Shown here: piece after piece, positions 16,463 to 29,230 of the stretch | Layout of the letters: the number at the start of each line of letters is the position of its first letter | Position numbering within the stretch: position 1 is the stretch's first letter | Assembly (NCBI GenBank): GCA_009773005.1 | Contig: WOUT01000013.1 | Location: 1-64,000, forward strand | Origin: Chloroflexota bacterium | GTDB lineage: Bacteria > Chloroflexota > Anaerolineae > Anaerolineales > Anaerolineaceae | Direction of reading: 5' to 3' | DNA length: 64,000 bases | Notes under the pieces: model-generated | Told to the model about the DNA's origin: nothing | The model's input: the letters and a program-made list of their open reading frames with translations, nothing else | Databases searched by the model: none | Made by a program: the position numbers and the translations under genes

Positions 16463-16550
16463 ACTCCCGCTCCTTGCTCCCTTTTAAAGATGATCTTCTG
16501 CTAAATCATACTATAATCTAAAAAACGATCACAACATTTTGGGTGAAAAA

Positions 16551-17291
16551 ATGAATTTTATTTATCTGTCGCCCCATCTCGACGACGCAATATTTTCCTG
16601 TGGTGGGATCATGTGGGAACAAGTCCATCGTGGCGACCGGGTTGAAATTTGGACGCTGTTCTCAGGTGATTCGCCGTCTGAAAATTTGACGACTTATGCA
16701 GGAACGCTGCACACACGTTGGGGCGTGAATAAAAATCCTTATGCAGCTCGCCGTACTGAAGACATCGCAGCGTGTAAATTGCTTCTTGTATCTTATCGGC
16801 ATCTTAATTACCATGATTGTATTTATCGCCGTCTGCCGGAAACAGGCGAACCGTTGATCAAGGAAGATCCGGATCTGTTTTTTGAGATCCATCCAGGTGA
16901 AGAATACTTAGTGAAGAAAATCAAGCATGACCTGGCATCTCGGCTGGCTAAAGATGCAACTATTATCAGCCCGCTAGGGGTGGGTGGACATATGGATCAC
17001 CGAATTACTCGAGCGGTTGCTGAAGAACTGGAAATACAAATTTGGTATTATCCTGACTTCCCATACTCGGCTTTGCCGGAAAATCCGATTGAAGCTTTGC
17101 TTCCATTGTACGTTACTCCCGTGGCGATGAACGTTTCCCTGGCGGGGAAGGAGGCTTGGTGGGACGCCATTGCGTGCTACCGTTCACAGCTTAGCTCGTT
17201 CTGGCAATCTGTTGAAGAAATGAAGGAAAAAGTCCAGGCTTACGCGGATTCCCCGTTGGCTTGCACCCTTTGGCAGAAAACACAACCTTGA
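16551..17291 (+). CDS. PIG-L family deacetylase
   Basis: FIYLSPHLDDAIFSCGG (HPHxDD-like zinc motif) and GGHMDHR. Confidence 0.9.
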   Translation: MNFIYLSPHLDDAIFSCGGIMWEQVHRGDRVEIWTLFSGDSPSENLTTYAGTLHTRWGVNKNPYAARRTEDIAACKLLLVSYRHLNYHDCIYRRLPETGEPLIKEDPDLFFEIHPGEEYLVKKIKHDLASRLAKDATIISPLGVGGHMDHRITRAVAEELEIQIWYYPDFPYSALPENPIEALLPLYVTPVAMNVSLAGKEAWWDAIACYRSQLSSFWQSVEEMKEKVQAYADSPLACTLWQKTQP

Positions 17292-17369
17292 TAAGGATCG
17301 AACCCTTGAGGAATATAATCTTGGATAGGGTTAAATTATAAAAGCAAACATAGAGCTGGAGGAATCGAA

Positions 17370-18185
17370 ATGACAAAACACGGAATTTTGACTGAAGAAG
17401 AATTTAAGACATATAAACCTCCTGCACGAGCGGTTGCTTGTCTAAATGAGTTCATGACAGCTAAAGGCTGCCATGAATCGGAAATCAAAGTTCTGGATTG
17501 GGGATGTGGTAGGGGAAGGTTTGTGCTTTGGCTTCGCGAGAAAGGCTTTAATGCGTTCGGGGTGGATATCGATGCTGAACCAGTTGAGAATGGCCTGACA
17601 CTTTTTAAGGCAAAAGGGTATAAGGATACCCCGTTAACTTTGATTCCCACATCAGGGCGTACTGTTTACGCAGATGAATTTTTTGATTTTTTGATGTCTG
17701 ATAATGTATTGGAGCATGTGAGCAATATTCAGGTAGCAATGGATGAAATTGGCAGAGTCACTGCAGCCAACGGTAGCGGGTATCATATTTTTCCGGCACA
17801 ATGGCAAATAATTGAAGGGCACCTCTTCATGCCTTTTGTCCACTGGATCCCGCAAGGTCTTTTCCGAAAAGCAGTGATCAGTCTTTTTGTTAAGCTTGGA
17901 ATTGAACCAAAATGGAAGGAGCTAGAGGGTCGTAGTAATAATGAAAAAGTAGACACGTATTACAAATACAGCAAGGATAATATCTTTTACCGTCGCTTTT
18001 CCTTCGTTCAACAACAATTTGAGAAGCAAGGGTTTAAGGTTACTTTTCAAACGATCAACAACCCTGCGGTGAGCAGAAACAGGTTGCTGGGTCCTTTTGC
18101 AAGGAATCGAATCACAAAACCAATTTTCAACTGGATGTTATTAACTTTTAAACAGGTTGAAATGGTGATAAAAAAAGGATCGTAA
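17370..18185 (+). CDS. class I SAM-dependent methyltransferase
   Basis: VLDWGCGRGRFVLWL, FDFLMSDNVLEHV. Confidence 0.88.
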   Translation: MTKHGILTEEEFKTYKPPARAVACLNEFMTAKGCHESEIKVLDWGCGRGRFVLWLREKGFNAFGVDIDAEPVENGLTLFKAKGYKDTPLTLIPTSGRTVYADEFFDFLMSDNVLEHVSNIQVAMDEIGRVTAANGSGYHIFPAQWQIIEGHLFMPFVHWIPQGLFRKAVISLFVKLGIEPKWKELEGRSNNEKVDTYYKYSKDNIFYRRFSFVQQQFEKQGFKVTFQTINNPAVSRNRLLGPFARNRITKPIFNWMLLTFKQVEMVIKKGS

Positions 18186-18307: not shown

Positions 18308-18553
18308 ATGGATCAAACTCACTGGGAAATTTGGGCGCGAACCTTGCAACAAAAGCAGTTGACCGGGTTAGCTCTCACTCTTTTGGAGGGCGCAGGTCCA
18401 ATAAAACTGATCTTTTCACAGATCCTGTTGAGCTGCACTCCGTTTGTTGGTCAAAACCAGTCCGGTTCATGGCAGTCCTTCGCCCAAATGCTCGAAGATC
18501 AAGCGGAATGCCAGTCTTTTGCTTCTTTTTTGCGTGAGGAGAAAAACTTTTGA
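18308..18553 (+). CDS. hypothetical protein, 81 aa, first gene of unknown cluster
   Basis: Overlaps the next gene by 4 nt in an operonic arrangement. Confidence 0.6.
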   Translation: MDQTHWEIWARTLQQKQLTGLALTLLEGAGPIKLIFSQILLSCTPFVGQNQSGSWQSFAQMLEDQAECQSFASFLREEKNF

Positions 18554-19305
18554 GCGGATTTGAACCTCTGATCGGAATACTCTTAGTTATTTCTTTCTCT
18601 GCTTTGGTCATTCTTTTTTCATTAAAAAGGATAAGAACGAAGCATCCTCCGGTATTTCGGAAAATTATCGCCATACAGAAATTACGCCGCTCCATCGGAC
18701 TAGCCGTTGAAGATGGAACACGCATTCACGTCTCGCTCGGAAGCGCAAATTTGATTGACCCTTCAAATACATCTGCCTTGGTGGGTTTAAGCTCCCTCCA
18801 CCGCATTGGACAATTGACCTCAACGAGTGATCTGCCGCCTATTTCAACCAGCGGTAATGGCGGGTTATTAATTCTTGGCCAGGATGTACTAAGTCAAATC
18901 TCAGTGGAAACCAATACACGCGAACTATACGATCCGCAGCATGCCCAAATGACTGGAGTGACTCCGTTTTCATATGCAGTTGGAACGATGGAAGCGATGA
19001 GCGACTCAGGAATTAATGCCAATGTGTTCATCGGGAATTTTGGCCCTGAAGCCGGGTTGCTATGTGACGCATCGGAAGGGAAACAAGCCTTTACACTTGC
19101 CGCCAGCGATTCGGTTACATCACAATCCATTTTTTACGCGATGTCAGATGACACACTGATAGGGGAAGAGTTGTTTGCTTTACCTGCCTACCTGGCTTAT
19201 CATTCGACCCACCAAGCCAGTCTGCGGGTTCAGGATATCTTCAGAGTTCTGGTGGGAATCGTCTTGGTAACGGGATCAATTTTAAAAATCTTTGGGTTGA
19301 TATGA
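18550..19305 (+). CDS. membrane-anchored hypothetical protein (resembles DUF6754)
   Basis: TM at both termini, conserved-looking Gly/Ser-rich soluble core; 4-nt overlaps with flanks. Confidence 0.7.
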   Translation: MSGFEPLIGILLVISFSALVILFSLKRIRTKHPPVFRKIIAIQKLRRSIGLAVEDGTRIHVSLGSANLIDPSNTSALVGLSSLHRIGQLTSTSDLPPISTSGNGGLLILGQDVLSQISVETNTRELYDPQHAQMTGVTPFSYAVGTMEAMSDSGINANVFIGNFGPEAGLLCDASEGKQAFTLAASDSVTSQSIFYAMSDDTLIGEELFALPAYLAYHSTHQASLRVQDIFRVLVGIVLVTGSILKIFGLI

Positions 19306-19922
19306 AATCACCGCTTTCTTTGACCGTTGCGATTGTCGTTGGGATTGTAATCTTAATTGGATATTTTGTCCCTTCGCCCTCATTAGCCGCAATCCGAACG
19401 CCAATGCTGAATTGGGCTATGACGCTCGCCGGGATAGCCAGCCTTGTGGCGATTATCAACCTGATATTCGGTGTCCATTGGAAACGTTTACGAGAATCTG
19501 GCAGTAAACAATTCTTCAGCGCTGTAGTGATTCTTTCGTTTCTTGTTACATTGACCGCAGGTATCTTCTTTGGACCTTCGGATTCAAACTATCAAAAGGT
19601 CGTCACTGCAATTCAAGTACCTATCGAAACCAGTTTAATGGCAGTACTTGCGATCACTTTGGCGTATTCCAGTCTGCGGCTGCTTCAACGTCAACACAAC
19701 TGGATGGGTTTGTTATTTTTTCTTAGCGTAATTTTGTTTTTGGTAATCAATAGCGGAGTGATGGCTTTCGCTTCAGACATCCCAATCTTGCAGGTCTTGC
19801 TTTCCGGTTTTCACAATGTACCGGTGGCAGGCGCGAGGGGAATTTTGCTCGGAATTGCTCTTGGCAGTCTCGCGACCGGGATTCGCATTCTTATCGGCTC
19901 AGACAAACCTTATAGCGGTTAA
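19302..19922 (+). CDS. multi-TM hypothetical protein
   Basis: Several hydrophobic segments; translationally coupled to neighbours. Confidence 0.7.
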   Translation: MKSPLSLTVAIVVGIVILIGYFVPSPSLAAIRTPMLNWAMTLAGIASLVAIINLIFGVHWKRLRESGSKQFFSAVVILSFLVTLTAGIFFGPSDSNYQKVVTAIQVPIETSLMAVLAITLAYSSLRLLQRQHNWMGLLFFLSVILFLVINSGVMAFASDIPILQVLLSGFHNVPVAGARGILLGIALGSLATGIRILIGSDKPYSG

Positions 19923-22306
19923 TGATGGTGGATATCCTTTGCCCGATTTGTAAACGTATCAATGATTCCAACACTGAACGCTGTTGGTATTGTCAAGCCA
20001 TTCTCGGGCCTGATAGGCAGGCAGAGAAAAATCAAGATGCTGATTGGTTGTCTCCATTGAGGGATGATTCAAATCAAAAAAATGATGCGGGTCAAATTGA
20101 ATCGTCATCCGAAAATGGAGAAGTTGCATCCAACCAGGAAGAGGTTCCAGATTGGTTGGCGCGGATCCGTAATCGTGAGCAATTTGAACAGGAAGCTCAC
20201 GGGGGTGATAAAGTACAAGATTTACCAGCAGAGGCTGATTCTGAACTCCCTGATTGGTTGAGAGAGATAAAAGCTGGAAATTCAGATGAAAAAAAAGATT
20301 CACTCCCTGATGAAAGTTTAAGTCAACCTGTTTCTGATTCAAGCCTGTTTGAACCGAAGGAACAACACCTGACAGATAATACTAAAGCTAATAATGAGGA
20401 CGATACCGAAGAATGGCTGAATCAGCTGGCAGCCTGGAAACCTGCGGAATCAAAACAGAACGAAGACTCGGATAAAGGAATCAATGAATCGCTCACTGAG
20501 AAACCCTTTGAAGAATCCTTCGATGATGAAGACTTGGATAAAGGCATCATTGAATCTCCGCCGGAAACAACCTTTGAAGAATCCAGACCTACTCTTGAGA
20601 TAAATATCGAACCTTCGGAAAAACCGATTTTTGAAGACAACGCTGTGTTTTCAAAAAATGAGTACCTGGATGATGTGCAAGAATTAAAACCACAAAACAT
20701 GATCAATGAACTTCCGACCTCGGCAACTGAAGAACAGAAAACATTCGATCTGGACTCACTCTCTGGCAACGATCAACCCGATGAAGCCCAGGAGAGAACA
20801 GACTCCAAAACTAAAGAGATTCCGGAACAACCAAAATCCCCTGAACCTGCATTTGATTTTGATGTTTTACGAGTTGGGTTATTCACTGAAGTGTCGTCTC
20901 CTGATCTACTAAAGGATGACTCAAAGGGACTGGAGGAATCTTCTGAACTTGTTACACTTTCCAAAAAAGGAGGCGAAGAGGATTGGTTGACGGGATTCCA
21001 ACGCCTGGACGACGATAAGGATATTACCTCTCAGGTTTTGCCTGTTTCGCAAGATGAAACCTCAGGAAGCGCCCCATTTTTACCAAATGACCTGCCTGAC
21101 TGGTTAACATCAGAATCAAGGGAAAAACCGATTGCGAAACAGCATGATCAAATCTCTGAAGAAATAAAACCCGAGATTTTTGATGGAAGTCTGGAAAAAG
21201 CACAATTGCCCGCCTGGCTGCAAGCCATGCGTCCTGTAGAGTCAGTACCTCAAAGAGCGCCTTCTGAAAAAAAGCAAGAAGGTTCTGAAAAGGAAGGCCC
21301 CTTGGCAGGGATCGCGGGCACACTTCAGAGCGCTGTTCACGCGGGCAGTTTTCATAAGCCTGTAAGCTATGGTTCAGCGTTAAAAGTATCAGAGCGGCAA
21401 AAAACGAACGCGAATTTGATTGCAAGTTTGGTTGAGGAAACCATTAGCGACCAGGACGTTGCAGTGCCTGTGAATCAACAATTTAAACGGTTATCTCTCC
21501 GTTTCCTATTGGCTTTTCTCATGATAACTCTTGTGGTTCTGGCGAATATTTCCCTTCGAAACTTTGTCATTTTGCCAGTTTTATTTCCTGCAGAGCTTGT
21601 CAGCACGTTTGACGTTATTAATTCTTTACCTGTGGATAAACCAGTTTTATTGGCAGCAGATTTTGAAGCAGGTTTATCAGGTGAACTGAATTGGAGTTCG
21701 CAAACGCTTTTTGAACATTTCATGCGGCGGAACTTGACCGCGGCTGTCGTTTCCACTAATCCGGTAGGGTCTGCCATTTTGTCCGGGCAGTTAGAATCAG
21801 CAAATCACAATGTGGCTGCATATTCAGTTCAAAATAGCGTTGTCAACCTCGGCTACTTGGCAGGAGGCTCTACCGCCCTTCAATTCATGACCGAGGATCT
21901 GCGCTCTGCGATACCATATACGCAAGATCTGCTTCCGGCCTGGGTAAATCCGGTTTTACAAAACGTACACATTATTAAAGATTTTGGCGCGGTAGTCGTG
22001 ATCACTGACAAAGCAGAGAGCGCGCGGGTCTGGATCGAACAAGTGCAGCCTTCGCTTGGTTCTACTCCGCTACTATTCGTGGTAAGCGCGCAGGCAGCCC
22101 CCTTAGTACAACCTTACTATCAAAGCGGTCAGGTAGCAGGGTTTATATCTGGCTTCAATGGCAGTTTGGCTTATGAACAGATCATTCAACAGCCAGGAGT
22201 ATCGACGCTCCATTTGAGTTCTTATCAATTAGCAATATTGTTTGTTGTAATACTCCTTCTTATTGGCGGACTGATCAGTTGGATCCGCCCGGTTGCTTCT
22301 GTGTAA
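19922..22306 (+). CDS. zinc-ribbon, acidic repeat-containing membrane protein
   Basis: N-terminal CPICKRINDSNTERCWYC; long acidic region with repeated (D/E/P)xWL motifs; C-terminal TM domain. Confidence 0.75.
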   Translation: MMVDILCPICKRINDSNTERCWYCQAILGPDRQAEKNQDADWLSPLRDDSNQKNDAGQIESSSENGEVASNQEEVPDWLARIRNREQFEQEAHGGDKVQDLPAEADSELPDWLREIKAGNSDEKKDSLPDESLSQPVSDSSLFEPKEQHLTDNTKANNEDDTEEWLNQLAAWKPAESKQNEDSDKGINESLTEKPFEESFDDEDLDKGIIESPPETTFEESRPTLEINIEPSEKPIFEDNAVFSKNEYLDDVQELKPQNMINELPTSATEEQKTFDLDSLSGNDQPDEAQERTDSKTKEIPEQPKSPEPAFDFDVLRVGLFTEVSSPDLLKDDSKGLEESSELVTLSKKGGEEDWLTGFQRLDDDKDITSQVLPVSQDETSGSAPFLPNDLPDWLTSESREKPIAKQHDQISEEIKPEIFDGSLEKAQLPAWLQAMRPVESVPQRAPSEKKQEGSEKEGPLAGIAGTLQSAVHAGSFHKPVSYGSALKVSERQKTNANLIASLVEETISDQDVAVPVNQQFKRLSLRFLLAFLMITLVVLANISLRNFVILPVLFPAELVSTFDVINSLPVDKPVLLAADFEAGLSGELNWSSQTLFEHFMRRNLTAAVVSTNPVGSAILSGQLESANHNVAAYSVQNSVVNLGYLAGGSTALQFMTEDLRSAIPYTQDLLPAWVNPVLQNVHIIKDFGAVVVITDKAESARVWIEQVQPSLGSTPLLFVVSAQAAPLVQPYYQSGQVAGFISGFNGSLAYEQIIQQPGVSTLHLSSYQLAILFVVILLLIGGLISWIRPVASV

Positions 22307-22325
22307 AAAGGATAATTAACCGCAT

Positions 22326-22997
22326 ATGCAGTTCAACGCAGACCTAATTTGGACAATTACCAGTTTTATTCTGACCCTGTTGGTATTCACCTATCTCTTC
22401 GGCGAAAATCCTGTTTTTCGATTTGTATCAGCCTTGTTTATCGGTGTAGCGTCTGGTTACTTTGCCGTCATTATTATCTACCAGGTGGTATTGCCAAGGT
22501 TGGTCGTTCCTTTGCTCGAAGGTTCTCTGATAGCATTGATTCCATTAGTCTTGTCAGGAGTATTGTTGCTTAAACTTTCCCCGCGCCTTTCTCGATTTGG
22601 AAATGTCTCAATGGCATATCTGGTTGGGGCGGGTGCGGCGATTGCGATTGGTGGAGCGGTTTTGGGCACCTTGTTCGGACAGATTAAGGGGGCGATTGCC
22701 GCATTTGAACCACAAATCAACGCGGCGGGAATTTCTCCGGTTTTATTGATCCTGGAAGGTGGTTTCCTGTTGTTGGGAACATTGGCAACACTGACATATT
22801 TTAATTTCGGCGCAAAAAATACTGCGAATATGGGTCCCAGGCGCGGGTTAATTGCGGCAATATTTGCCTGGATAGGAAAATTTTTTATTGCCATCACACT
22901 GGGAGCTGTCTTTGCAGGGGTTTTAACCGCAGCGATCACAGCGCTTGTGGAGCGTTCGGATTTCATTTTGCAAACGATCAAAGGCTTTTTGCGCTAA
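22326..22997 (+). CDS. multi-TM hypothetical protein
   Basis: Hydrophobic 223-aa ORF within the same operon. Confidence 0.7.
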   Translation: MQFNADLIWTITSFILTLLVFTYLFGENPVFRFVSALFIGVASGYFAVIIIYQVVLPRLVVPLLEGSLIALIPLVLSGVLLLKLSPRLSRFGNVSMAYLVGAGAAIAIGGAVLGTLFGQIKGAIAAFEPQINAAGISPVLLILEGGFLLLGTLATLTYFNFGAKNTANMGPRRGLIAAIFAWIGKFFIAITLGAVFAGVLTAAITALVERSDFILQTIKGFLR

Positions 22998-23006
22998 CAG
23001 GATATT

Positions 23007-24731
23007 ATGACCACATTAATCACTGAAGCAAATTCGATTCTCGGAATTGAAATCGGTTCCATTCATACCAGGGCGATCCTGTTTGATGTTGTGGAAGAAA
23101 GTTACCATTTTATTGCTTCAGGTTCTGCCGGTTCAACCTACGGCGATCCCTTTTTTGATATTGGAGAAGGCGCTTTTGAAGCGATTGCTCGTTTGCAAGA
23201 GATTACTGGAAGAATTTTGCTTAACCATGACGGGAATTTGATCCTTCCGAGCCAGGCTGGCGCAGAAGGGGTTGACAGGTTAATTATCACGGTCTCTTGC
23301 GGGGCTGACCTTAACCTTGTTACATTTGGTCTCTTGAATGATGTTTCTTTGGAAACAGCGAACCGTCTTGCAAAGACTTCTTTTACAAATGTGATCGAAA
23401 GTTTTGGTATAAACGACCGCCGTCCAATTCATGTGCAAATGGATGCACTGCTTGCTGCCCGACCGGATATTTTAGTCGTGGCTGGTGGTACCGACCGGGG
23501 CGCGACCAGATCTGTCGCGCGCATGGTTAGTATGATCGCTACGGTATTGCAGATCATCCCCAAGGAAGAACGCCCAACCGTTTTATATTGCGGAAACCAG
23601 GCAATGGTCAAAAGGGTAAAAGAATTACTGGATAAGATAACTGAAATAAAAGTGACGAATAATATCCGCCCAACGATTGACTCTGAAGACCTTGAAAAAG
23701 CAACGGTTGACTTTGGAAAGTTAATGATGGATCATCGCATGCAAAACGTGGGCGGTCTCGATCGCATCTCACCACTTTGTAGTGATCAGCCGGTGTTATC
23801 GAGCGTTGGTTTCCAACGGGTGGTCCAATTTCTTGGAAAGCAATATGATCCAGCAAAAGGTGTTTTGGGCCTTGACTTGGGCTCAGCGCACACTATCGCG
23901 GCATATGCAAATAATAAGGAAAATTCTATAAATGTTTTCCCAAGCGGTATGGGTGTAGGCTTGGAATACGTTTTACAGAGAACTCAAATCGAAGAAATTG
24001 AAAAATGGCTGCCAGAATTGATCCCGCACGAAGAGATCCTGGCTTACCTTTGGCAAAAGACGCTATTTCCCGCAACGATTCCCGCGACATGTTCCAGTCT
24101 AGCCATCGAGCTCGCGGTTGCCCGGCATATTTTGCGCATGACGATGCGAGAATTATCTTTACGTGGAGCGTTTGTGTCGAGAACCTTTGAACCCATCATT
24201 GTTAGCGGTTCTGTGCTTACACACACAGCCACGCCGCAACAAGTTTTGCTTACATTGCTGGATGGCATTCAACCCCTCGGGATTACACCGCTGGTTCTGG
24301 ATAAACACGGTATCATCCCGCTATTAGGTGCGGCGGCAAAGATCAACCCCCTCTTGCCAGTACAGGTTCTTGAAAGCACAGCGTTTGTCAATTTGGCAAC
24401 GAGCGTTACAGCAGAGAGCAATGCTCGCTATGGAAATACGATCATGCAGGCCCGGTTGGTATATACTTCTGGTAATTACATTGATGCTGAAGTAAAACAG
24501 GGTTCACTTGTTGTGCTGCCATTAAAATCTGGTGAAACAGGACAACTCATTTTGAAAACGGTCAGACGCACACGGATCGAAGATGTTGAGATGACGAGCG
24601 AACCGATCAAGATCAAAGGGGGAGTCTGCGGCGTTGTGATCGATGCCCGCGGACGGCCACTGGAACTGCCAGCCGAAGATGCGCGGAGAAGAGAGTTATT
24701 AAAACGTTGGGCGTTCATGCTGGGCGGTTAA
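23007..24731 (+). CDS. MutL/GlmL-like protein (methylaspartate mutase accessory protein family, ASKHA fold)
   Basis: ILGIEIGSIHTRAILFDVVEE...SGSAGSTYGDPFFDIGEGAFEAI; a second GVLGLDLGSAHTIAAYANN phosphate loop. Confidence 0.8.
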   Translation: MTTLITEANSILGIEIGSIHTRAILFDVVEESYHFIASGSAGSTYGDPFFDIGEGAFEAIARLQEITGRILLNHDGNLILPSQAGAEGVDRLIITVSCGADLNLVTFGLLNDVSLETANRLAKTSFTNVIESFGINDRRPIHVQMDALLAARPDILVVAGGTDRGATRSVARMVSMIATVLQIIPKEERPTVLYCGNQAMVKRVKELLDKITEIKVTNNIRPTIDSEDLEKATVDFGKLMMDHRMQNVGGLDRISPLCSDQPVLSSVGFQRVVQFLGKQYDPAKGVLGLDLGSAHTIAAYANNKENSINVFPSGMGVGLEYVLQRTQIEEIEKWLPELIPHEEILAYLWQKTLFPATIPATCSSLAIELAVARHILRMTMRELSLRGAFVSRTFEPIIVSGSVLTHTATPQQVLLTLLDGIQPLGITPLVLDKHGIIPLLGAAAKINPLLPVQVLESTAFVNLATSVTAESNARYGNTIMQARLVYTSGNYIDAEVKQGSLVVLPLKSGETGQLILKTVRRTRIEDVEMTSEPIKIKGGVCGVVIDARGRPLELPAEDARRRELLKRWAFMLGG

Positions 24732-24771
24732 TTTTGGTATGTTTATTGCAACTAGATATTCAGGAGATATA

Positions 24772-25854
24772 ATGCACGCATTGGTTACCCAGATCCACCC
24801 GCTTGTTCAAATCCGCAGAAACCGGAGTCTCCCTGTTCCCGGTACTGTGCTGGTACGGGTGGGTCAGAAGGTCATTCCGACTGAGATCTTGGCTGAAACC
24901 AATGTTCCTTCTCAGCATTATTTAGTGGATGTGTTCCGTTCATTGGGAATGAAAAATACTACAGAAGCAGAAAAACTCGTCAACCGCAAGATCGGCGATC
25001 AATTGGATAAACAAGATATTATTGCTGAAACTGGGGGCTTTTTTTCACGGGTGATCCGCGCTCCAATGCCAGGAAAAATCGTTGCGATCAAAAATGGACA
25101 GGTGCTTCTGGAGACTGATTCTCACAAGATCACAGTTCAATCCGGGCTGACTGGTTCGGTTGTTGAAGTAATCAAAGACCGGGGAGCGGTTGTTGAAACC
25201 AACGGGATGTTGATCCAGGGAGTTTGGGGAAACGAGAGAATCGGTTTTGGGCCATTCCTGGTCGATGCGGATGCGATTGAAAAAGAATTGACACCCGCAT
25301 CACTCAGTATCACCTTGCGTGGAGCTGTTATTGCCGCTGCTTTTTGCACTCAAGAAGAAAGCCTCATAACAGCCGGCAGCCTGCCAGTGGGCGGGTTAAT
25401 TTTGGGGAGTATGAATCCAGAGCTAATTTCATGTGCAATGAAACAGAATTTTCCGATTGTCTTGTTAGAAGGATTTGGTCAAAACGGAATAAATGATCTT
25501 GCCAAAAACCTGCTGCTTTCCAACTCAAAGAGAGAAATATCCATTCATGCTGCAAAATGGGACCGATTTACTGGCAATCGCCCAGAAGTTGTGGTTTCGC
25601 TCCCAGCCGAAGGTGAATCCTATCGTGAAGTAGCAGAATTTGCGTCAGGTCAAGCTGTCAGAGTCCACGCCAATCCTTATTCTGGTCGGGTTGGATGGAT
25701 ACAAAACATCATTTCAGGTCTGGCGTCCCTGCCGAACGGATTGAGAACGACTGCCGCTGCGATTAAATTTCAAAACAATGAAAGTGCAATTATCCCATTA
25801 ATAAATCTGGATATTATTGATATAGAGAACAGATTCCTCGGTAAAACCGAATAA
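24772..25854 (+). CDS. hypothetical protein with barrel-sandwich-hybrid-like segment
   Basis: RAPMPGKIVAIKNGQVLLETDSHKITVQSGLTGSVVEVIKDRGAVVETNG. Start 24772 has upstream AGGAG (track start 24739). Confidence 0.7.
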   Translation: MHALVTQIHPLVQIRRNRSLPVPGTVLVRVGQKVIPTEILAETNVPSQHYLVDVFRSLGMKNTTEAEKLVNRKIGDQLDKQDIIAETGGFFSRVIRAPMPGKIVAIKNGQVLLETDSHKITVQSGLTGSVVEVIKDRGAVVETNGMLIQGVWGNERIGFGPFLVDADAIEKELTPASLSITLRGAVIAAAFCTQEESLITAGSLPVGGLILGSMNPELISCAMKQNFPIVLLEGFGQNGINDLAKNLLLSNSKREISIHAAKWDRFTGNRPEVVVSLPAEGESYREVAEFASGQAVRVHANPYSGRVGWIQNIISGLASLPNGLRTTAAAIKFQNNESAIIPLINLDIIDIENRFLGKTE

Positions 25855-25866
25855 GGAGGAAATGCC

Positions 25867-26457
25867 ATGGCACTGAATAATTTTGATGAGGATCGATTCG
25901 ACCAGGAGAGTTACGGAGGTGAGGATTTTACGCCTGAACCAGAAAAAAAACGCGGTAACCGCACCTTCCTCATTGCTATCGGGATCGTTGGAGTGATCTT
26001 TGTACTTTCTTTGATCCTGCTCTTGATCGTTGCCCCCGGGTTATTGGCAAACCAGCGGGCAGCCCAGCAGGAGCAAGCCGCGCAGATCAACGCGGCGAAT
26101 ACAGCAACCGCCATGGCAGCTACAGCAATTGCTCAACAGGCTACCCTGGCTGTGAAAACAACGGTTGCTCCCGCTGCTGGGGCTGGACCAACAAAAACAC
26201 CTGTGGTTGTAATTCTGGCGAATACGCCGGCTGCGGCATCAGGTTCTCAGCTTTCTGCTTCTGAACTCGCGACAGTCTCTGCGCTGCAGACACAAATGGC
26301 TGGCACAGGAGGAGGGGGAACCCCGGCGCCTGCCTCAACGGCTCTGCCCACCACCGGTTTTGCGGATGAAGTCGGACTGCCAATGATGGCTGGCCTCGCA
26401 GTGATCCTCGTGTTTGTGATCATTCTGAGCCGGAAGCTCAGACTAAGCGCTCGATAA
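25867..26457 (+). CDS. bitopic membrane protein with C-terminal LPxTG-like sorting signal
   Basis: N-terminal TM, Ala/Thr/Gln-rich linker, then LPTTG-FADEV...-hydrophobic-SRKLRLSAR. Confidence 0.72.
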   Translation: MALNNFDEDRFDQESYGGEDFTPEPEKKRGNRTFLIAIGIVGVIFVLSLILLLIVAPGLLANQRAAQQEQAAQINAANTATAMAATAIAQQATLAVKTTVAPAAGAGPTKTPVVVILANTPAAASGSQLSASELATVSALQTQMAGTGGGGTPAPASTALPTTGFADEVGLPMMAGLAVILVFVIILSRKLRLSAR

Positions 26458-26472
26458 CAAAGTATAAAAAGT

Positions 26473-26508
26473 AAATCCGGAGTTGAGAACCCTCATCCCC
26501 GGATTTTT
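26473..26508 (+). terminator. intrinsic terminator AAATCCGG...CCGGATTTTT
   Basis: Perfect 8-bp stem plus T run after the unknown cluster. Confidence 0.8.
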
Positions 26509-26521
26509 GTATTGTTAAGTC

Positions 26522-27982
26522 TTATGTTATGCTGGCTGCGATTTTCTCGCCAAATTTGAGCAATTCTTTCACCATAATATCGGAACGACCTTCCGCGTAA
26601 ACACGTAGAACAGGTTCCGTTCCGGACGGGCGAATGAGCAGCCAGGAATCATCCGCAAAAATATACTTCACGCCGTCAATTTGGGAGATCTCGGCGATGT
26701 GTTCCCCTCCAATTTGGGCGGGGGGTTCTTTTTTAAGTTTTTCAACCATCTTGTCTTTTTCTACCGGATGTTTGAGCCGCAAGTCTTTCCGTTCATAGAA
26801 GACAGGCCCGACTTCCTTTTGCAGGTCTTCCACCATCTCGTATAGAGAAGTCTTCGCGGCAGCCACCATTTCGATGATCAATAATCCCATCAATACCCCG
26901 TCACCTTCAGGGATGTGACCTTTGAAGGAGATCCCGCCTGATTCTTCTCCGCCGATCAACACGTTCTCTTTAATCATGTAGTCGGAGATATGGTTGAAAC
27001 CAACCGGCGTTTCGCGCAGCGGAAGGTTATATTTACTGGCGAGACGATCGATCATTCGGGTGGTTGAGACCGTGCGTACCACAGTCCCGGTCATGCCGCG
27101 TTTTTCCACCAGGTGGCGCAACGCGAGCGCCATGATCTTGTGCGGGTCAACAAAATTGCCGCGTTCATCCATTGCGCCGATACGGTCAGCGTCACCATCA
27201 GTGGCGATGCCGAAGAAGCCCATGCCTGCGCCAATGGCGCCCGCCAGTGGGGTGAGGTAACGGGCGATGGGTTCGGGGTGAACTCCGCCAAAACCCGGAT
27301 TCATCTCTCCGCGGATCTCGGTAATCTCGCAGCCGGAGCCTTGCAGAATACCTTTGATGACACCCCGACCGGAGCCGAACATAGAGTCAACCACGAACCG
27401 TTGCGGGTTTTCGGCGATCATATCAAAATCGATGAGTGTGCGCAGGTGGTCATAGTATGCCGGAATGGGATTGAATTTGTAGATCAGGTTTTGGGCTCTC
27501 GCCAGTTCGAAATCCATTAAATTGGGTCCACGACCCTGCTGCTCGTTGTCGTTAAGGTACACCTCAACCCGGCGGCATTGTTCTGGCAGCGCGGAACCGC
27601 CATGCGCAGATTTCAGTTTGACGCCATTGTAGCGCGGGGCGTTATGCGAGGCGGTAATCATGACCCCGCCGATCGCATTCAAGTTGCGCACGGCATGTGA
27701 GATCACCGGAGTTGGCGCGTCTGACTGCGCCAGATAGACAGTGAAACCATTGGCTGCCAGCACGCGGGCAACTTCCGCCGCGAAACGGTCAGAAAGAAAA
27801 CGAGTATCAAACCCCACCACCATCTTTTTTGGATCCGGCGAATGCTCGAAAACCGTGCCGTTCGTCCAGGTGTCTGAAGCAACTGCATCGGCGATGGCTT
27901 GAGATAACTGCCGCAGGTTATGAAATGTAAAGGTGTCCGAGATGACGGCTCTCCAGCCGTCGGTTCCAAAATGGATCGTCAT
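26522..27982 (-). CDS. phosphoglucomutase/phosphomannomutase family protein
   Basis: GVMITASHNAPRYNGVKLK; ATDGDADRIG; RPSGTEPVLRVYAEG. Confidence 0.95.
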   Translation of the reverse strand: MTIHFGTDGWRAVISDTFTFHNLRQLSQAIADAVASDTWTNGTVFEHSPDPKKMVVGFDTRFLSDRFAAEVARVLAANGFTVYLAQSDAPTPVISHAVRNLNAIGGVMITASHNAPRYNGVKLKSAHGGSALPEQCRRVEVYLNDNEQQGRGPNLMDFELARAQNLIYKFNPIPAYYDHLRTLIDFDMIAENPQRFVVDSMFGSGRGVIKGILQGSGCEITEIRGEMNPGFGGVHPEPIARYLTPLAGAIGAGMGFFGIATDGDADRIGAMDERGNFVDPHKIMALALRHLVEKRGMTGTVVRTVSTTRMIDRLASKYNLPLRETPVGFNHISDYMIKENVLIGGEESGGISFKGHIPEGDGVLMGLLIIEMVAAAKTSLYEMVEDLQKEVGPVFYERKDLRLKHPVEKDKMVEKLKKEPPAQIGGEHIAEISQIDGVKYIFADDSWLLIRPSGTEPVLRVYAEGRSDIMVKELLKFGEKIAASIT

Positions 27983-28030
27983 TGATTTTCTCCAAAAAGT
28001 GCTGTGATAGTAAACCGGAACTGATTCAAC

Positions 28031-29230
28031 TTACCAATTGGGCGCAGGAGTAGCCGTGAGAAGCAGACTTTGGACAATCCAACCTTCTTGTCCGTCTTCA
28101 AGGATCACGTGCGCCCAGGTTGCATTACCAACAATTTGAAAGTCTGGCAAAACCTGAACGAACTGACCGTTTAACAGGCTTGTAAGGTACTCTCCATCAA
28201 AACCGGGAGTTTTTCGGACCCTAACTCCATTAGACGTGGCGCTAAATATCTTTGCCCATACTGGGGTAGGTTTGGGAGTGATCGTAATGGTAGGCGTGCG
28301 GGTAGGCACCAGAGTATTGGTGGGTGTCGCATCTATTGTAATGATCGCAGTCGGTGGCGCCAGGGTTGAGGAGGGCGTGGGGGCCAAATTGAGGGTGGTT
28401 TGAATTGGCATTGTTGCTGTGGCAGGCGTGATCTGTTTCTGCAATGCCGAGCCGAGCGCGCTGGAAACTACCAGTGCGTAAACCGCTCCTCCCAACAGTA
28501 CGGCGGTGAGCAGATACCCGAAGAAGGTAAAAGGGCGCAGCCGCAAAAAGGCTAAAACGATTGAGCCGATCAGGATGACGAGCAGGATGTTCACGCCGAC
28601 AAATTTAAGCGCTTCCGAGAGTAACCCCTGGATTCCACTGGTCAAGCCGAACCCGGCAACGCCGATCGGCAGGTAGACCTCATAGGCCAGCGCCACACTG
28701 GCAACCAGTGAGCGCTGCTTGGGCACGCGCACGGTCAGGTAGATCGCCAGCGCCGCGCCAATAGTCAACAAGATCAAGTCAGGCACAGTGAAGGAGGTAT
28801 GATAGCGGGCCTGGGTTACCGGCAAATTCGTGAAAAGCTTCGAGAACCATCCGCTCAACGCGCCGCCCGCGAAGATGAAAGCAGACCCGATCAGCAGACT
28901 GCCCGCGGATTGCATGAAGAACCGGAATGAACCGACCGCGGTTGAAAAACCCAACCCGATCAAAGGCGCCATGAATGGCGCAAGCAGGGCAGCCAGGATA
29001 TAGATTGCTGGATGATCGAGTAAAATGGCGACTCCCAATACCAGACCACACAACATGGAGAACAGGTAAAAATCCAGACCTGGCACGAGGCGTTTGGCGA
29101 TCTCATTGACATAAAGGGAGCGTTCGGTTTTGCCTGAAGGGACGATCAAGCGGCGGGTACGGCGCCGGCGCGACTCATCAATGTGGCTGGGTTGATCTAT
29201 GGGTGTAAATTCTTCAGGGATTTGATTCAT
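28031..29230 (-). CDS. DUF389-type membrane protein fused to a C-terminal SH3b-like domain
   Basis: DUF389-like TM core; T/P-rich linker; NGVRVRKTPGFDGEYLTSLLNGQFVQVL...W. Confidence 0.8.
   Translation of the reverse strand: MNQIPEEFTPIDQPSHIDESRRRRTRRLIVPSGKTERSLYVNEIAKRLVPGLDFYLFSMLCGLVLGVAILLDHPAIYILAALLAPFMAPLIGLGFSTAVGSFRFFMQSAGSLLIGSAFIFAGGALSGWFSKLFTNLPVTQARYHTSFTVPDLILLTIGAALAIYLTVRVPKQRSLVASVALAYEVYLPIGVAGFGLTSGIQGLLSEALKFVGVNILLVILIGSIVLAFLRLRPFTFFGYLLTAVLLGGAVYALVVSSALGSALQKQITPATATMPIQTTLNLAPTPSSTLAPPTAIITIDATPTNTLVPTRTPTITITPKPTPVWAKIFSATSNGVRVRKTPGFDGEYLTSLLNGQFVQVLPDFQIVGNATWAHVILEDGQEGWIVQSLLLTATPAPNW

Follow-up and report, generated by a model that had tools for sequence, protein, structure and literature searches.

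The window, that is, the whole stretch of 64,000 nucleotides that was analysed, corresponds to contig C33 of the 2.86-Mb genome of a Chloroflexota bacterium. Eight ORFs (g1 to g8) on its plus strand fill positions 18308-26457, and their successive junctions, from g1 to g8, measure -4, -4, -1, +19, +9, +7 and +12 nt. An earlier note on this DNA had read the region as an eight-gene co-oriented block with a terminator behind it, and we recovered both: all eight ORFs are present on this strand, and the block is closed by a terminator-like hairpin at about 26473-26508 (plus strand; -15.7 kcal/mol, z = -3.9 against shuffles) with UUUUUG directly after it. The hairpin was not listed by a simple terminator scan, probably because its stem is interrupted. 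Pfam matches were obtained for g2 (DUF6754), g6 (MutL) and part of g7 (RnfC_N), and g1, g3, g4, g5 and g8 gave none above the Pfam cut-offs. A known anti-phage defence system was rejected as a candidate, as seven of the proteins had no PADLOC family match at E <= 0.01. On the 5' side the block is flanked by a PIG-L-type deacetylase and a methyltransferase (16539-18185), which are retained in some relatives. Beyond the terminator (26522-29230) lie a phosphoglucomutase/phosphomannomutase-like gene, convergent with the block, and a gene for a membrane protein whose C-terminal region is SH3-like; these neighbours are kept in many relatives, but in only part of the order.

The small protein g1 and the membrane quartet

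All features of the block given below lie on the plus strand. The first gene, g1 (18308-18553), encodes an 81-aa soluble protein, which has profile matches upstream of MutL in several phyla and whose motif 'lLE...P...Q...P...LEd' is conserved across phyla. It is followed by four genes for membrane proteins, the quartet g2 to g5, whose predicted topology was derived from hydropathy and charge. g2 (18550-19305, TTG start) is a DUF6754 protein (Pfam PF20539, 2e-26) made up of a transmembrane (TM) segment, an alpha/beta domain and a second TM segment, and its AlphaFold (AF2) model has the same TM-alpha/beta-TM arrangement with a pLDDT of 94.2. The basic residues after TM1 suggest that the alpha/beta domain is cytoplasmic. 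Homologues of g2 in other phyla have a signal-peptide-like and FN3-like N-terminal region, which fits an N-outside topology. Very long N-terminal regions before the DUF6754 domain were seen in the homologues of three loci (L160, L167, L169), which reach about 910-940 aa. Both g3 (19302-19922) and g5 (22326-22997) are polytopic, with about six TM segments each, and g3 has a conserved RGILLG..LG close to its C-terminus.

The earlier note had described g4 (19922-22306) as a zinc-ribbon/acidic protein. A zinc ribbon with cysteines C7, C10, C21 and C24 (19940-19993) and a long acidic linker are indeed there, but the product is really a membrane protein, and its conserved part is a C-terminal TM-alpha/beta-TM domain (21464-22303), seen both in cross-phylum homologues and in an AF2 model of residues 515-794 (pLDDT 94.8). 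In g4 homologues the ends are basic, which points to an extracytoplasmic position for this second alpha/beta domain. Homology was detectable neither between g2 and g4 nor between g3 and g5. Profile searches of the PDB gave no significant match for g3, g4 and g5 and no match whatever for g2, and Foldseek searches of the PDB with the g2 and g4 models returned nothing at E <= 0.001, only generic Rossmann-like similarities.

The linker of g4 carries an array of PxWL-type motifs (20039-21220), with W-L motifs at residues 40, 76, 110, 163, 353, 392 and 430. In 55 g4 linkers we counted 439 such motifs against 5.2 in composition shuffles, and their density was 13.7 per 1000 residues as compared with 0.04 in 901 other ORFs. 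Among the Chloroflexota loci that have MutL and g7 without the quartet, 7 of the 14 pairs are preceded by a separate PxWL-motif protein (L194, L197, L200, L201, L205, L206, L207), usually with a zinc ribbon and in some cases with one TM segment. In the window and the loci related to it, g4 carries the same PxWL/zinc-ribbon module fused to its N-terminal end, and the array is best read as a putative multivalent platform on which the MutL-g7 side docks.

MutL, its partner g7 and g8

The 574-aa product of g6 (23007-24731) is an ASKHA protein of the MutL/GlmL family, matched over the whole domain by Pfam PF13941 (3.6e-54), and it is the sole MutL in the window's genome. Its C-terminal part (24309-24728), about 140 residues with DARGRPL (24642-24662), is absent from mutase-linked MutL. 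The phosphate loops of g6, IEIGSIHTRA and GLDLGSAHTIA, differ from the canonical sequences DxGSTTTK and DxGGATTD. Such degenerate loops characterise the Chloroflexota MutL branch, which could therefore consist of pseudo-ATPases, and homologues in other phyla retain the canonical loops.

For g7 (24739-25854), identified by profile and domain matches, the label 'sandwich-hybrid-like' had been proposed. The barrel-sandwich part was confirmed by an RnfC_N-like match (24964-25140, residues 76-134; Pfam, E 6e-6), but the label is incomplete, as a C-terminal KOW-like motif follows the middle region at about 25648-25713. In four loci (L178-L181) MutL and g7 form a single ORF of 902-1011 aa, and gene fusion is a classic sign of partner proteins. 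The fused proteins do not have the DARGRPL extension, and our tree places them with the mutase MutL clade; the genes around them gave no functional clue. All 14 Chloroflexota loci without the quartet keep MutL adjacent to g7. Since the pair occurs without the quartet, its basic job, to go by gene content, may not require it. In four Chloroflexia-like loci (L202, L203, L204, L208), g7 lies apart from the MutL block and adjoins response-regulator-like genes, one kind in the first three and a second kind in all four.

The last gene, g8 (25867-26457), encodes an acidic N-terminus, a TM segment, an Ala/Thr-rich stretch, LPTTGFADE, a second TM segment and a basic tail. The arrangement LPTTG-TM-RKLR is present and scores 14.2 bits with the LPXTG model, just under the cut-off of 15.9, and sortases were found in 60 of 61 relatives. 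The first TM segment comes after the acidic stretch, unlike a classical signal peptide. Apart from one other phylum-level locus (L072), all loci in which g8 was detected belong to the window's class, and by this distribution the gene is a lineage-specific extra that the wider system does not have.

Conservation in Chloroflexota

A search with g6 was positive in 58 of the 61 genomes covered. We fetched 40 loci from relatives that represent many families across the order, and in every one the detected block genes lie on one strand in the order g1 to g8, with the block-type MutL inside the eight-gene block. The ORFs chosen from these 40 loci comprise g4 in 40, MutL in 40, g7 in 38 and g1 in 28, and the missing genes are partly explained by contig ends and overlapping ORFs. 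Another 20 loci from other families and classes of Chloroflexota have the order g1-g2-g3-g4-g5-MutL where the contig permits, with g7 next in several of them. At the level of the phylum, DUF6754 was found in at least 68 of 301 genomes, a lower bound because PF20539 misses G031, whose block is intact. Profile searches detected g7 in 180 and g3 in 69 of the 301 genomes; when these results are compared, 65 of the g3-positive genomes turn out to be g7-positive as well.

Occurrence in other phyla

The query used across phyla was a hand-written consensus of the g4 domain, and the 80 loci that it returned are real DNA. When these loci were searched with profiles derived solely from Chloroflexota relatives of the window, g2 to g5 were recognised, mostly at E about 1e-30 to 1e-55. 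The loci come from phyla that include WOR-3, Zixibacteria, Eisenbacteria, Stahlbacteria, Fermentibacteria, Coatesbacteria, Neomarinimicrobiota, Planctomycetota and CSSED10-310; in Planctomycetota, DUF6754 was present in 69 of 244 sampled genomes. Seven of the eight families recur outside Chloroflexota, with a gene set that in some genomes is rearranged, partly fused or dispersed. Loci of sufficient length often have the order g1-MutL-g7-g2-g3-g4-g5 (L122, L139, L146, L149, L156, L171), and the large planctomycete contigs L189 and L191 have this order too. The quartet itself is often found outside Chloroflexota in two or three tandem copies. We observed both MutL and g7 in 26 of 26 DUF6754-positive genomes outside Chloroflexota (g7 at E <= 1.7e-101; in G352 masked bases interrupt MutL), including those that have the genes far apart (G356, G360, G447, G591); as these genomes were chosen for having the quartet, the count means that the quartet implies MutL-g7, not the reverse.

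Several neighbourhoods outside Chloroflexota contain further genes. Six WOR-3-type loci (L109, L115, L124, L133, L148, L162) have a quartet without MutL; behind it come genes for a DUF4388 protein, two roadblock-like proteins and two small membrane proteins, to which a large receptor-like gene and TolQ/ExbD/TonB-like ones are often added. A membrane protein of 140-170 aa with a PH-like look precedes g1 in L122, L139, L146, L149 and L171. Just upstream of g1 in L156 and L170 (Scalindua) are a SpoIVB-type S55 peptidase-like gene and a propeller-like gene.

Discussion

Conserved linkage, co-occurrence, gene fusions, modularity and separation from the mutases are all documented by the genomes compared here. 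We consider the chances evenly divided that the block is one functional unit, in which MutL-g7 would act as a nucleotide switch on the membrane quartet, with g1 as a small accessory. The cytosolic pair of g6, the MutL-like ASKHA protein, and g7, a barrel-sandwich/KOW adaptor, would form the nucleotide-dependent switch. Its target would be a membrane assembly of g2 with its predicted cytoplasmic domain, g4 with its predicted extracytoplasmic domain and the polytopic g3 and g5. The zinc-ribbon/PxWL tail of Chloroflexota, which in the window sits on g4, probably docks many copies of the cytosolic pair or of another partner. Nucleotide binding by g6 would then cause the membrane part to be assembled, gated or remodelled, by analogy with the PilM/pilus platforms and with FtsA and the divisome. 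Complex formation, nucleotide switching and the direction of action are what we infer here. Against this reading stand the degenerate phosphate loops of the Chloroflexota MutL branch, the occurrence of MutL-g7 without the quartet, the position of g7 off the block in the four Chloroflexia-like loci and the siding of the fusions with the mutase clade.

The Pfam match of g6 would also be expected if it were an accessory of glutamate or ornithine mutase (GlmL or OR-4 type) that by chance shares an operon with membrane genes unrelated to it, and true mutase-linked MutLs do occur among the relatives. Five relatives have a second, shorter MutL of 447-480 aa (less in the L176 copy as read) next to mutase genes, of ornithine aminomutase type in L172, L173, L176 and L177 and of glutamate mutase in L175; these neighbours were named by sequence recognition, and GlmE was confirmed by Pfam in G031. 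The block-type MutL, in contrast, was not found beside mutase subunits in the 40 loci, a position on which the earlier note had proposed to judge its reading. g6 scores far under the NCBIfam cut-offs, with 69.4 of 475 bits for GlmL, 56.1 of 204 for the GlmL family and 46.5 of 600 for the OR-4 type. In the tree, which is unrooted and has some long branches, the mutase-linked MutLs form one clade (100/99) that excludes g6, and after the last shared motif they have 21-30 residues against about 140, with DARGRPL, in the MutLs of the blocks and pairs. GlmE, moreover, is above its cut-off in one of the 61 relatives, as against the 58 with this MutL. We therefore disfavour the mutase accessory as highly improbable.

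A transporter or export system, with the quartet as channel or flippase and MutL-g7 supplying or gating the energy, would accommodate two polytopic and two domain-bearing membrane proteins, and the tandem quartets could be read as copies for different substrates, all relying on a single MutL-g7. Nothing in the set matches a known transporter in Pfam or among PDB sequences, however, and we know of no ASKHA protein that acts as a transport motor. We regard this reading as unlikely. It is also conceivable, if quite unlikely, that the envelope is sensed by the extracytoplasmic domain of g4 and, in other phyla, by g2 with its FN3-like region, and that a signal passes from them to MutL-g7; the domains predicted on each side of the membrane, the DUF4388 and TolQ/ExbD/TonB-like genes that adjoin the WOR-3 quartets and the response-regulator-like genes beside g7 in Chloroflexia-like loci all point this way. 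The set nevertheless has no kinase, cyclase or DNA-binding domain, and MutL-g7 persists where the quartet is missing. Finally, MutL-g7 could be a chaperone or reactivase of some cofactor enzyme, with the quartet as its client or delivery apparatus. The ASKHA fold and the grouping of the fused proteins with mutase MutLs agree with such a role, and barrel-sandwich domains are common in cofactor-carrying proteins, but no common client enzyme was seen next to the pair in genomes without the quartet and no modified-lysine motif was made out in g7, and we consider this very unlikely.

A switch acting on a membrane assembly, the reading we prefer, has partial parallels among known systems. The GlmL/MutL accessories of mutases (PF13941; NF040745, NF040744, TIGR01319) have a homologous ASKHA domain, but g6 falls outside their clade, has the long DARGRPL extension and other gene partners, and occurs in genomes without GlmE. 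PilM and FtsA are likewise cytosolic actin-fold proteins whose genes accompany those of membrane partners with extracytoplasmic domains: PilM of the type IV pilus PilMNOP system works with inner-membrane partners, as seen in an integrated pilus structure (PMC3724824), and FtsA acts with FtsN (PMC7613929). This likeness is one of arrangement, as no match to PilM or FtsA was found for any of the eight proteins, the membrane proteins belong to unrelated families, and we saw neither a pilin nor a PilB-type ATPase nor a secretin among the genes of the block. Part of g7 resembles the N-terminal barrel-sandwich of RnfC/NqrA (PF13375, PF05896), but the match ends there, with a KOW motif instead and no redox subunits nearby, and g7 reaches only 19.1 of 246 bits with TIGR01945. 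DUF6754, to which g2 belongs, is a family without described function.

Searches for DUF6754, PF20539, PF13941 and Anaerolineae with glutamate mutase found no paper in a literature collection that is short on subscription journals and preprints. As far as could be tested, the folds of the components are partly known, and their combination and breadth are undescribed. The earlier view is supported in part. A conserved and undescribed set of genes with a link to the membrane, centred on a protein of MutL/GlmL fold that is not a mutase helper, is borne out, and the conservation of the neighbourhood, on which this view had been made to depend, extends to other classes and phyla. The complex proposed in the same note, in which an ATPase would link the cytoplasm to the cell surface, is a more tentative suggestion, and the LPxTG-like g8 is confined to the lineage. 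Whether this is a new class of membrane machine shared by several phyla, in which a MutL-type switch of actin/Hsp70 fold and its barrel-sandwich/KOW partner would drive a DUF6754 quartet, with multivalent PxWL scaffolding in Chloroflexota, is in our judgement an evenly balanced proposition. Near-universal presence in the order, occurrence in several phyla that are deeply separated and a quartet without a significant solved sequence relative make a basic envelope function likely. Since the complete block is present in large single-contig planctomycete genomes, cultured, genetically testable hosts probably exist. The family name MutL is misleading, as many of its members belong with this system and not with B12 mutases, and a widespread machine of the cell envelope may have been overlooked.
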